The notes beneath the pieces were generated by a model. That model was not told the DNA's origin, searched no databases, and saw only the letters and a list, made by a program, of their open reading frames with translations. Shown piece by piece: positions 3,972 through 38,352 of a stretch of DNA of 38,352 bases. The translations under genes were made by a program, and so were the position numbers. Within the stretch, counting starts at the first letter, position 1; each line of letters starts with the position of its first letter. The stretch spans positions 1-38,352 of the forward strand of contig JACCRF010000117.1 of NCBI GenBank assembly GCA_013813715.1, read 5' to 3'. This DNA is from Gemmatimonadaceae bacterium (GTDB lineage: Bacteria; Gemmatimonadota; Gemmatimonadetes; Gemmatimonadales; Gemmatimonadaceae).

Positions 3972-5237
3972 TTACGCCTTTACCTGCCCCTCGCCAGTGA
4001 CGAGGTACTTGTAGCTGCACAGCTCCGCCAGGCCCATCGGCCCCCGGGCATGGAGCTTGTCCGTGCTGATTCCAATCTCCGCGCCGAATCCGAACTCGCC
4101 ACCGTCATTGAAGCGGGTGCTAGCGTTCCAGAGAACCACCGCCGAGTCCACCTCGTGGAAAAAGGCGTCCGCGACTTCCTTGCTTCCCGTAACGACGGTG
4201 TCGGTATGATGCGAACCGTAACCGTTGATGTGCGCGATGGCTGCGTCCGGGCCAGCCACAGTCTTCACGGAAAGAATCAGATCCAGGTACTCCGTCGCCC
4301 AGTCCTCTTCGGTCGCCGCAACGGCACCCGGCCAATGCTCGCGAACGGTCTCGTCTCCCCTGACCTCGACGCGATGCGGTTCGAGCAGCCCGGCCATCTC
4401 CTGGTAGAAAGCCGTCGCAATGGCGCTGTCTACGAGCAGGGTCTCGACGGCATTGCAGACGCCGGGCTTCCGGCACTTGCCGTCGATGAGAATCCGCGCT
4501 GCCATGTCGAAGTCCGCATCCTCATGCACGTAGACATGACAGACGCCCTGATAGTGCTTGAGCACGGGCATGCGGGCCGCCGCCACGACCCGCTCGATCA
4601 GCGCCTTACCGCCGCGCGGAATTATCAGATCGAGATACTGATCCATTCGCGCGAGGTGATCGATCCCCTCGCGATCGGTGAAAGGGACGAGCTGAATACT
4701 GTCAGGTGGCAGCCCGGCAGGCTCACCACCCTGCTGCAACGCCGCAGCAATCGCCGTGTTGGAGGCGAGGGCCTCAGACCCGCCGCGTAGAATTGTCGCA
4801 TTGCCCGTCTTGAAGCACAGCGCCGCGGCATCGCTGGTCACGTTGGGGCGGGATTCGTAGATCATTCCGATAACCCCGATCGGCACTCGCACCTTCCGCA
4901 TGTGCAGCCCGTTGGGGCGCGTCCATTCGGCGATCACTTCGCCCACCGGATCGGGTAGCGCCGCGACATCCTCGATTGCCGTAGCAATTGCCTCGAGGCG
5001 CTCCGGGCCGAGCCTCAACCGGTCGGTCATCGCCGAGCTCAGACCGCGATTCTGCTGTTGTTGCAGATCACTCTCATTCGCCGCGAGGATCTCGCTGCGC
5101 CGGGCGCGCACCTCGGCCGCCATCGCGCGAAGAATGACATTCTTCTGCTCCGAGTCCAACTGCACCAGCCTCCGCGTCGCGGCGCGTGCGCGGGCACCCA
5201 TCTCGAGAATCCGGGATTCGATGTCGGGCGAGGACAT
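3972..5237 (-). CDS. proA: Gamma-glutamyl phosphate reductase
   Basis: A 421-residue cytosolic enzyme of proline synthesis that reduces gamma-glutamyl phosphate to glutamate semialdehyde with NADPH. It is full length for ProA. Recognisable segments are VRVPIGVIGMIYESRPNVT (about 117-134), the FKTGNATILRGGSEA stretch, the catalytic Cys261 in KPGVCNAVETLL, and the C-terminal ARGPMGLAELCSYKY. The start is ATG at 5237, three bases after the proB stop codon, so proB and proA form a translationally linked operon. The order proB-proA with a nearby divergent proC puts the whole three-step glutamate-to-proline route in 3.1 kb. Confidence 0.97.
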   Translation of the reverse strand: MSSPDIESRILEMGARARAATRRLVQLDSEQKNVILRAMAAEVRARRSEILAANESDLQQQQNRGLSSAMTDRLRLGPERLEAIATAIEDVAALPDPVGEVIAEWTRPNGLHMRKVRVPIGVIGMIYESRPNVTSDAAALCFKTGNATILRGGSEALASNTAIAAALQQGGEPAGLPPDSIQLVPFTDREGIDHLARMDQYLDLIIPRGGKALIERVVAAARMPVLKHYQGVCHVYVHEDADFDMAARILIDGKCRKPGVCNAVETLLVDSAIATAFYQEMAGLLEPHRVEVRGDETVREHWPGAVAATEEDWATEYLDLILSVKTVAGPDAAIAHINGYGSHHTDTVVTGSKEVADAFFHEVDSAVVLWNASTRFNDGGEFGFGAEIGISTDKLHARGPMGLAELCSYKYLVTGEGQVKA

Positions 5238-5240
5238 GCG

Positions 5241-6020
5241 CTACTCCGCCATCTTTACTGGGAACCTTGTGCCCGTGCCTCGACCTTCCACCAGCTCCAC
5301 GATTTGCTCAGGCTGCATTCCGGAAGCGATAATGCACGGGACACCGCCATGAACAGCTTCGCGAACTGCCCGCAACTTGGACGGCATCCCCCCGACTGAA
5401 ACGCTCCCCGTGCCGTCCCGCGCGAGATGCAGTACCGAATCCACATCGGTCACCAGCGGAATCACCTCTGCTTCGCCGTCTGATTTCAGGTCCATGAGAC
5501 CGGGAACGCCGGTGAGAAGAATGAGCATGTCCGCTCCCCAGAGAACGGCGACGCGGGCCGAAAGTGTGTCGTTGTCGCCGAGGCGCAGCTCTTCGACTGC
5601 CACCGAATCGTTCTCGTTTATGATGGGAACGACGTTGCGCTGCTCCAGCAGACGCAGCATGGTTGCCTTCACTCTGCCCACCCGATCTTCACTTTCCAGG
5701 TCTGCATAGGTGAGAAGCAGCTGCGCCACGTGCAGCCCATGCCCTCTGAGGTAGCTCTGGTAGGCATGCATCAGGTACGACTGGCCCACCGCGGCGCAGG
5801 CCTGCAGGCTCACGATGTCAGTGGGGCGCTTGTCGAAGTGCATTGGCTTCAAGCCGGAAGCAACCGCACCGCTGGTCACCACCACGACCTTGTGACCGCG
5901 ACGCTTGAGCTCGGCGACGGCCTGGACGAGTCTGCATAACTGATCCTCGTCCATCTCCGCGCTTTCCTTACGCGTGAGGATGCCGCTGCCGAATTTCAGA
6001 ACAACGCGTTTGTCACTCAT
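5241..6020 (-). CDS. proB: Glutamate 5-kinase, short form without PUA domain
   Basis: Phosphorylates the gamma-carboxyl of glutamate with ATP, the first step of proline synthesis. I place the start at ATG 6020, where the amino-acid kinase fold begins (MSDKRVVLKFGSGIL). The open frame extends 82 codons upstream but that part is not kinase-like and would overlap the divergent proC. Kinase motifs include VVVVTSGAVASG, the INENDSVAVEEL glutamate/metal segment and DNDTLSARVA, followed by LTGVPGLMD. The protein is 259 residues, against about 365 for the E. coli enzyme, because it ends after the kinase domain with no C-terminal PUA domain. It is upstream of proA with a 3-nt gap. Confidence 0.95.
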   Translation of the reverse strand: MSDKRVVLKFGSGILTRKESAEMDEDQLCRLVQAVAELKRRGHKVVVVTSGAVASGLKPMHFDKRPTDIVSLQACAAVGQSYLMHAYQSYLRGHGLHVAQLLLTYADLESEDRVGRVKATMLRLLEQRNVVPIINENDSVAVEELRLGDNDTLSARVAVLWGADMLILLTGVPGLMDLKSDGEAEVIPLVTDVDSVLHLARDGTGSVSVGGMPSKLRAVREAVHGGVPCIIASGMQPEQIVELVEGRGTGTRFPVKMAE

Positions 6021-6156
6021 GCGATGCTGTTGGGGAAGTACCGTATCCCGTATCTTCTGCGAGATCGCCTGGCCAATATTGCTCGCCGAGGTCGGAACCG
6101 CCAACGGCCAACTCCCAACGGCAGCAACCGGCAGCCTGCAGAGGAATGCTTCGATC

Positions 6157-7068
6157 ATGACGACCACTGAGCGCGAGTCACCGCGATCATCCGTAAGCGG
6201 CGCTGATCCACTCGGCGCGGTCAGGCTCGCTTTCATCGGCTGCGGGGTGATGGCCGAGGCAATCATTGCCGGCTTGCTGAAGCGACGGCTGGTGACGCCC
6301 GGACAGATTGTCGGCAGCCATCCAACTCAAGCGCGCCGTGATGAGCTCGAGGCGAATTATGGCATCGACATGGTCGAAGACAATCGCGAAGCGGCGGTAT
6401 TCGATTCTTCGCCCGAGGGCTCGTCGGCGAACGGCCACGCCCACTCGCTGGTGATGCTCACCGTCAAGCCGCAGCGCCTGGCCACGGTGCTGGGCGAGCT
6501 GAAGGGTGCGTTGCAGCAGGACCAGCTCCTGCTCTCGATCGTCGCTGGCGCGCGTACCGACACGCTAGCGAGGGGCCTGCTTCACCCGTCGATCGTCAGG
6601 GCGATGCCGAACACACCGGCGCAGATAGGAGAGGGAATCACCGTCTGGACGGCGACGCCCGAGGTGACCGAGGCGCAGCGCATGCAGGTTAGCGCGCTCC
6701 TCGGCGCCCTGGGTCGCGAGATGCCGGTGGAAGAGGAGAAGCTGATCGACATGGCGACGGCCCTCAGTGCGACGGGACCGACGTACATCTTCCTCGTGAT
6801 GGAAGCGCTTGTGGACGCCGGCGTGCACATGGGGTTTTCCCGTCACATGGCTCAGGAGCTCGTCATCCAGACGATGCTGGGGTCGGTGCTGTTCGCCCGC
6901 GAATCGCAGAAGCATCCGGCGGAGCTGCGCAACATGGTCACGTCCCCGGGCGGAACGTCGGCGGAAGCGATCTACCAGATGGAGAAGGGCGGACTGCGGA
7001 CAGTGCTCTCCAAGGCCGTCTGGGCCGCCTATCAGCGGGCGGTATCGCTGGGTTCGGCAAAAGGGTGA
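6157..7068 (+). CDS. proC: Pyrroline-5-carboxylate reductase
   Basis: Last step of proline synthesis: NAD(P)H reduction of pyrroline-5-carboxylate. Start ATG at 6157 with GAGGAA at 6141-6146; the frame is open further upstream but into the divergent proB gene. The Rossmann motif is near the N-terminus (LAFIGCGVMAEAIIAGLL), followed by LTVKPQ, the IVRAMPNTPAQIGEG segment and the C-terminal active-site region LSATGPTYIFLVMEAL and TSPGGTSAEAI. Length 303 residues is slightly longer than the usual 270-280, accounted for by an N-terminal tail of about 25 residues and a short insertion (about residues 78-93). It is divergent from proBA across a 136-bp gap that must hold both promoters. Confidence 0.96.
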   Translation: MTTTERESPRSSVSGADPLGAVRLAFIGCGVMAEAIIAGLLKRRLVTPGQIVGSHPTQARRDELEANYGIDMVEDNREAAVFDSSPEGSSANGHAHSLVMLTVKPQRLATVLGELKGALQQDQLLLSIVAGARTDTLARGLLHPSIVRAMPNTPAQIGEGITVWTATPEVTEAQRMQVSALLGALGREMPVEEEKLIDMATALSATGPTYIFLVMEALVDAGVHMGFSRHMAQELVIQTMLGSVLFARESQKHPAELRNMVTSPGGTSAEAIYQMEKGGLRTVLSKAVWAAYQRAVSLGSAKG

Positions 7069-7155
7069 TCGGTCGGATTCGCTGAACTGCGGCTTCTGCT
7101 GAAGAGACTCAAGTTAGGCAGCGCCTTAAGCATTGGATTGCCCTTCGCAACGGCT

Positions 7156-7229
7156 CGGATTATCGTGTTCGTAGTTGAGGCGCCTGCGCTGGAAGCAGGA
7201 ACAACCCGGTTCGAATCCGGGCGCCCCGA
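7156..7229 (+). pseudogene. tRNA-Pro(TGG)-like sequence with decayed 5' half
   Basis: The 3' half is a clean tRNA: anticodon stem CCTGC/GCAGG, 7-nt loop containing TGG at the anticodon position, 5-nt variable loop, T arm CCCGG-TTCGAAT-CCGGG, and acceptor strand CGCCCCG plus A, the usual 3' end of tRNA-Pro. Counting back gives exactly the canonical 74-nt length, but the 5' acceptor strand is CGGATTA instead of CGGGGCG, the D arm pairs poorly and lacks GG, and base 33 is C not T. No CCA is encoded. I read it as a degenerate tRNA or a tRNA 3' fragment in front of unrelated sequence. Confidence 0.5.
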
Positions 7230-7240
7230 TTGGACCGGAG

Positions 7241-7258
7241 CAATTGAAGCAATTGAAG
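7241..7258. repeat. Two tandem copies of a 9-bp word
   Basis: CAATTGAAG is repeated twice without a gap (7241-7249, 7250-7258), and followed by a partial copy (CGAAG). It lies between the tRNA-Pro-like sequence and tRNA-Arg. Probably incidental or part of the pre-tRNA spacer. Confidence 0.5.
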
Positions 7259-7293
7259 CGAAGCTTGAGACCGCTTAACTTGCGAGATTACCT

Positions 7294-7370
7294 GCGCCAG
7301 TAGCTCAGTTGGATAGAGCAACAGCCTTCTAAGCTGTGGGTCGGGGGTTCGATTCCCTCCTGGCGCGCCA
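7294..7370 (+). tRNA. tRNA-Arg(TCT)
   Basis: A complete cloverleaf: acceptor GCGCCAG pairs with CTGGCGC, D stem GCTC/GAGC, anticodon stem ACAGC/GCTGT with loop CTTCTAA (anticodon TCT at 7328-7330), T arm with loop TTCGATT, discriminator G7367 and an encoded CCA at 7368-7370. It reads AGA/AGG-type arginine codons. Confidence 0.95.
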
Positions 7371-7388: not shown

Positions 7389-7461
7389 GCGCCGTTAGCT
7401 CAATTGGCAGAGCAAATGACTCTTAATCATTAGGTTGTAGGTTCGATTCCTACACGGCGCA
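7389..7461 (+). tRNA. tRNA-Lys(CTT)
   Basis: Acceptor GCGCCGT pairs with ACGGCGC; D stem GCTC/GAGC; anticodon stem AATGA/TCATT with loop CTCTTAA, anticodon CTT; T stem GTAGG/CCTAC with TTCGATT; discriminator A7461. CCA is not encoded, unlike the tRNA-Arg 18 bp upstream, with which it may be co-transcribed. Confidence 0.95.

Positions 7462-38282: not shown

Positions 38283-38352
<70 letters not shown>

Follow-up and report, generated by a model that had tools for sequence, protein, structure and literature searches.

According to the available portion of the Islander report (PMC4383910), a regenerated tRNA gene and a displaced tRNA gene fragment mark the ends of a genomic island. In the accessible part of a second report (PMC10872708), an additive flexible genomic island with recurring 20-base repeats of the tRNA-Lys 3' end was described for Methylophilaceae. 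Here, a locus of this kind was analysed in a 38,352-nt stretch of DNA (the window) from a Gemmatimonadaceae bacterium, which formed contig C106 of the draft genome G000 (3.73 Mb, 183 contigs). A tRNA-Pro(TGG) 3' half in front of a tRNA-Arg–tRNA-Lys pair was very probably the old attR of an integrative element, the original 3' end of a tRNA-Pro gene that was displaced when the gene was split.

The locus was similar to the Islander islands, as that portion of the report presents them, in its working tRNA gene, displaced 3' fragment, and tyrosine integrase beside the tRNA gene. The fragment began at the anticodon arm, which corresponds to their anticodon-centred subsite. It differed from them in that the fragment was mutated, the integrase by the working gene was a remnant, and the two ends were located on different contigs. 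As in the accessible description of the Methylophilaceae island, successive insertions at one tRNA gene were marked by multiple copies of its 3' end, whereas the tRNA involved was tRNA-Pro, the host belonged to Gemmatimonadaceae, the repeats were 47 bases long instead of 20, and most of them carried a conserved upstream end. The locus also resembled tycheposons, as far as their available description goes, in that elements with cargo and tyrosine recombinases occur at tRNA genes. The literature search found nothing on tandem tRNA-Pro fragments at integrase-bearing genomic islands, and the locus is not claimed to be unpublished. The type of scar is already known, and the fragment in the window is a new, mutated member of it.

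Sequence and extent of the tRNA-Pro 3' half

The displaced 3' half was located at 7183–7229 on the forward strand and was composed of the anticodon arm, the variable loop, the T arm, the 3' strand of the acceptor stem, and the discriminator A. The anticodon stem CCTGC/GCAGG (7183–7187/7195–7199) was perfect and enclosed the loop GCTGGAA, with C at position 33 and the anticodon TGG. The T arm (7205–7221; CCCGG-TTCGAAT-CCGGG) was also perfect, and was followed by the acceptor 3' strand CGCCCCG and A73 (7222–7229). The perfect anticodon stem, T arm, and acceptor 3' strand and the C at position 33 had been listed in a first-pass annotation of the window and were confirmed by the sequence. When 21 fetched sequences were used as the BLAST database, the fragment matched the 3' half of tRNA-Pro(TGG) of relatives (G003 and others) with an identity of 39/47 and an E value of 3.6e-9. 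The identity with the working tRNA-Pro(TGG) of G000 itself was 35/47.

The first-pass annotation had described the tRNA-Pro-like sequence as extending over 7156–7229, of which only the 3' half was retained. The 5' strand from 7156 (CGGATTA) paired poorly with the acceptor 3' strand of the fragment, and the sequence preceding the fragment in the window matched the 5' 27 nt of tRNA-Pro no better than shuffled sequences (p 0.26). The same test was negative in all six species with fragments (p 0.14–0.64). The recognisable tRNA portion is therefore 7183–7229, perhaps from 7180, and a full-length tRNA relict at 7156–7229 was rejected, as its 5' part showed no similarity to tRNA-Pro beyond chance.

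In the whole window, ARAGORN called only tRNA-Arg(TCT) and tRNA-Lys(CTT), with no call at the fragment, and the Rfam tRNA model at its gathering score gave nothing at 7156–7229. Nor was the fragment among the matches listed when 421 bases were searched with an E limit of 10; four overlapping same-clan matches with lower scores were not part of this list. By the covariance model, the fragment does not qualify as a functional tRNA gene, and the high-scoring cloverleaf against which the first-pass annotation had proposed to check it did not appear. The silence of both programs would suit a chance or low-information resemblance to tRNA. Against this stood the BLAST match described above and the like fragments before tRNA-Arg in five other genomes of the genus, and a chance resemblance is hardly credible.

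Working tRNA-Pro gene and gene order in relatives

Among the 49 tRNA matches listed for G000, two were in the window, and the other 47 places were fetched as 30 stretches for ARAGORN. An intact working tRNA-Pro(TGG) gene was found at C12:5613–5686, and the other tRNA-Pro genes were Pro(CGG) on C72 and C97 and Pro(GGG) on C81. Thus the fragment was not the sole TGG tRNA-Pro of the genome, as the first-pass annotation had suggested verifying.

A DNA search of 61 genomes yielded 30 loci. L037 and L038, which showed the same order in other families, were excluded from the counts, and the remaining 28 loci (L009–L036, one per genome, own included) were compared; all of them held tRNA-Arg(TCT) and tRNA-Lys(CTT). 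An intact tRNA-Pro(TGG) gene was located directly before tRNA-Arg in 12 of the 28 loci, at the exact position of the fragment. This unsplit Pro-Arg-Lys order was found in 10 of 12 loci from other genera of the family and in 2 of 16 loci from the genus of the window (G003 and G011). The other 14 loci of the genus comprised six with a fragment like that of the window (G000, G006, G007, G013, G015, and G018) and eight in which no fragment was seen by eye. The order in G003 was rph-rdgB-Pro-Arg-Lys-glycosyltransferases, where rph and rdgB were named by reading the ORFs and the glycosyltransferases by tblastn with those of the window.

In five split genomes of the genus, tRNA-Pro(TGG) and the tRNA-Arg–tRNA-Lys pair were found on single contigs at distances of 2–74 kb. 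The distance to tRNA-Arg was 2.0 kb in G013, 2.6 kb in G017, 4.8 kb in G015, 6.2 kb in G002, and ~74 kb in G012, and the genes in between differed among the loci read. In G013 and G015, a single contig contained tRNA-Pro(TGG), the interval, and, downstream in the same orientation, the fragment before tRNA-Arg. In G000, tRNA-Pro(TGG) was on C12 and the fragment on C106, and these contigs were not joined; we infer that they represent the two sides of one interval.

In the rpoB tree, which kept one bad row (G038) and lacked G018 as well as G005, G007, G008, and G010 (no rpoB match), the unsplit G003 (support 85/95) and G011 (99/98) were nested inside split groups. A single split alone is therefore insufficient, and reversal, replacement, or repeated splitting is possible.

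The position of the fragment, which is that of tRNA-Pro in unsplit loci, would also be expected if a second full tRNA-Pro gene before tRNA-Arg–tRNA-Lys had decayed where it stood after duplication, losing its 5' half with no site-specific integration involved. In addition, no integrase was seen adjoining the fragment, and GGATTATCG resembled, by eye, the D-loop letters GGTATCG. These observations were opposed by the different genes held by the interval between tRNA-Pro and tRNA-Arg in the loci read, by the upstream part, which was no closer to the tRNA-Pro 5' end than shuffles in any of the six species, and by the left boundary of the fragment, which was the same as that of the clean 47-base copies described below. 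The upstream part also matched the end of a mobile element in register. Decay after duplication is thus unlikely.

Mobile elements with copies of the 3' half

When the genomes were searched with the working tRNA-Pro gene, many partial copies were found. Twenty stretches from 11 genomes (10 of the genus), picked for partial tRNA-Pro matches, were fetched. By BLAST, 47-base copies of the 3' half outside intact genes, each starting at the anticodon stem, were present in the fetched regions of seven of the 10 genomes of the genus (G000, G001, G002, G003, G012, G013, and G015), and none were found in those of G005, G006, and G017. Up to four copies were present on one stretch (L099). A conserved end of ~75 bases was found upstream of 14 of the 18 printed 3'-half sites, two of which were partial (L101:14155, and L111:48, which was cut by the contig start); this end was missing or nearly so at L101:1755, L099:11583, L114:4279, and L115:9031. 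In G000 itself, contig C182 contained a 3' half identical to that of the working gene (47/47) together with the conserved element end, which provided the direct repeat of the 3' half that the first-pass annotation had advised looking for.

Integrase ORFs (PF00589) ended 94 nt from the 3' end of Pro(TGG) in G012 and 77 nt from the 3' end of Pro(CGG) in G001. In G000, an ORF with an 80-residue remnant of an integrase C-terminus ended 95 nt from the working tRNA-Pro gene; it matched the G012 integrase (L104:1427–2680; phmmer, 7.6e-20) and had no Pfam match. The integrases scored 19.7 and 19.9 of 220 bits against the NCBIfam XerA/integron model, far under the cut-off, and a search of solved structures with the integrase matched nothing. 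A scan of five window proteins revealed no integrase.

The tRNA-Pro 3' halves were arranged in tandem at L099:5718–12864, L101:824–18860, L103:2688–14818, and L105:7401–9710, with a spacing of 0.9–12.4 kb. Few of the array segments contained an integrase-like ORF (phmmer, three seeds), so some of these elements may be mobilised in trans. A model of the clean sites (R2, described below) also matched element ends with a divergent 3' part on C15, C16, and C4 of G012, C210 of G005, and C30 and C178 of G000, which spanned about positions 2–94 to 3–120 of the model. Elements of this family may therefore insert at other tRNA genes as well.

Element-end-like sequence upstream of the fragment

The region at 7136–7182 on the forward strand, which ended where the 3' half began, was a probable remnant of the right end of a mobile element. 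The block at 7136–7166 matched the element ends in register at 19 of 31 positions (p 4.5e-4 against shuffles for this fragment alone), and ended 16 nt before the fragment, compared with 17–20 nt before the 3' half in the elements. The profile score for 12 sites and six fragments was 11.4 in register and 0.9 or less at offsets of 1–8. Column permutation of the block, which was picked after the alignment had been seen, gave p 1.5e-4; when the six final columns, which had served as the anchor, were omitted, p was 0.002. For single fragments, the in-register match gave p 0.0002–0.0005 in the window, and p 0.007 in G015, 0.008 in G013, 0.010 in G006, 0.03 in G018, and 0.07 in G007 in the same register. 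By this match, element-specific sequence was located directly inside the fragment.

Other searches gave mixed results. A 75-nt HMM of the element end alone, run on the window and ten loci, recovered the two sites of G012 and C182 and left the flank of the fragment undetected, its best match in the window being elsewhere (E 0.059). Local alignment to three reference ends was significant for L106 only (p 0.001; L099, 0.59; L110, 0.99). The R2 model, built from 12 clean sites with the fragment excluded, matched 7136–7229 over positions 27–122 with 27.7 bits (E 8e-6), and since ordinary tRNA 3' parts scored like the fragment, this match is consistent with an element end without singling it out. 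A model built from the six fragments (R1) had matches in 174 of the 179 genomes of the family, for the most part with much lower scores, and its matches beyond the training sequences were left unused.

The same flank was considered as part of a functional, small D-armless tRNA-like RNA, in which the acceptor strand TGAGGCG (7176–7182) would adjoin the anticodon stem, with the promoter-like TTGCCC-N17-TATCGT ahead. A TTG-N17-TA[TA]CGT pattern (TTA in G007) was present in six species at a nearly constant distance of 58–64 nt ahead of the final A, anticodon-arm-like hairpins were enriched in the six (combined p 8e-4), and the T arm was conserved above the rest. The acceptor pairing, however, was no better than in shuffles (combined p 0.43, six species), T-stem pairs were broken in some species without covariation beyond shuffles, the anticodon loop varied among species, and the promoter-like block was in register with the element end. 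Such an RNA is very unlikely, and a D-armless tRNA was rejected as the main reading after pairing, hairpin, covariation, consensus-fold, and single-fold tests. TTGCCC-N17-TATCGT as a conserved promoter before the fragment was likewise dropped, the block being in register with the element ends.

T-stem alleles and conservation of the fragments

The last 25 bases of the fragment (T arm and acceptor end) were identical at 24 of 25 positions to the CCCGG-type allele, and at 20 of 25 to the own gene of G000. G003, G011, and the working genes of G002, G012, G013, and G017 had the CCCGG stem, and the working genes of G000 and G015 had the GCTGG stem. A fragment nearer to the CCCGG type than to the own gene is expected if the 3' half of the working gene was exchanged. 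The alleles fit such an exchange and are not proof of it, because both occur in unsplit loci of other genera (4 CCCGG, 3 GCTGG, and 3 GCCGG among 10 loci).

The T loop of all six fragments contained CGA, compared with CAA in the working tRNA-Pro genes of the genus that were read, which speaks against gene conversion. The TTCGA T loop was also found in other genera; CGA occurred in 3 of their 10 unsplit loci, so that CGA is not necessarily a novelty shared by the fragments. The match of the G015 fragment to the tRNA 3' half reached only p 0.07. Conservation among the six fragments was 78% in the T arm, 36% in the anticodon part, and 27% in the leader, and the better-kept T arm is unexplained by plain decay. 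It is conceivable, albeit improbable, that the T arm and the upstream block are under selection in the six species, and that the scar has taken on a role for tRNA-Arg–tRNA-Lys, as a small hairpin that is transcribed or as a control element.

The orphaned tRNA-Arg–tRNA-Lys pair

The tRNA-Arg(TCT) gene, which usually follows tRNA-Pro where the locus is unsplit, was located at 7294–7370 (ARAGORN; Rfam, 71.8 bits), and tRNA-Lys(CTT) at 7389–7461 (ARAGORN; Rfam, 75.5 bits), both on the forward strand. A putative sigma-70-like promoter, TTGAAG-N17-TAACTT-N12, was present on the same strand at 7253–7293. Its pattern, TTGWWK-N17-TANNTT ~12 nt before tRNA-Arg, was shared by all 14 split loci of the genus, and was absent from all 12 loci with an intact tRNA-Pro and from the 2 others; it was derived from these same loci, with tolerances of 16–18 for the spacer and 10–13 for the distance. 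The promoter-like sequence may represent one inherited event, and its activity is predicted from the sequence pattern. A search with the promoter-plus-Arg pattern retrieved 11 public contigs. A second tRNA-Arg–tRNA-Lys locus, in the MAG Chersky_446 (L119:5042–5166), contained the block TTGTCT-N17-TATTCT and what looked by eye like a long hairpin where the T arm would be.

Proline-synthesis genes and surroundings

A cluster at 3972–7068 of the window contained proA (3972–5237; TIGR00407, 471 bits) and proB (5241–6266; TIGR01027, 264 bits) on the reverse strand, and proC (6214–7068; TIGR00112, 239 bits) on the forward strand. The family match of the proB ORF was limited to residues 86–337, and the true start is probably inside the ORF. 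No full-length homologue of proA was found in 36 relatives, which gave three weak partial matches, and proC was absent from 35 of the 36; the genomes of some relatives were incomplete. In a good-quality subset (completeness of 90% or more and contamination of 5% or less; 24 genomes, own included), proA was matched in three genomes, two of them by weak partial matches outside the genus, and proC in the own genome alone. Among 118 family genomes, 28 matched the proA model, and six were over the cut-off, own included. Missing from nearly all of the relatives searched, proA and proC look like cargo, and are probable island cargo. The location of proline-synthesis genes beside a tRNA-Pro scar may be a coincidence.

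By tblastn, the glycosyltransferases adjoining tRNA-Lys in the window were also present in G015 and G003. The first-pass annotation had placed the fragment between a conserved proC and a variable glycan locus. The rarity of proA and proC in relatives and the shared glycosyltransferases contradict both descriptions and indicate that the variable side is upstream. The contig broke off 70 bases into a 16S rRNA gene (38283–38352; Rfam), which is likely an assembly break at the rRNA operon.

Proposed history of the locus and its implications

Of the two origins offered in the first-pass annotation, integration at the 3' end of a tRNA gene was better supported than decay after duplication. Integration is favoured by the Pro-Arg-Lys order in relatives, the intact TGG gene elsewhere in the genome, the 47/47 repeat on C182, the integrases beside tRNA-Pro genes, and the element-end-like block upstream in the right register. 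A tyrosine-recombinase element with a copy of the tRNA-Pro 3' half would have integrated into tRNA-Pro(TGG), which would then have been located directly before tRNA-Arg(TCT) and tRNA-Lys(CTT). The 3'-half copy of the element would have restored a working gene, while the original 3' half would have been pushed to the far end, now before tRNA-Arg–tRNA-Lys, where it would be decaying. Later insertions would make the interval variable, which in G000 appears to hold proABC, and the orphaned pair would have gained its own promoter. We infer that such an integration produced the fragment.

The half tRNA thus serves as a landmark, at the probable edge of a tRNA-Pro insertion hot spot in an uncultured genus of Gemmatimonadaceae. 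Such a hot spot would explain why genes for proline synthesis that are missing from almost all of the relatives searched are present here. The locus also suggests a fate of tRNA genes left behind by integration, which seem to acquire their own promoter.
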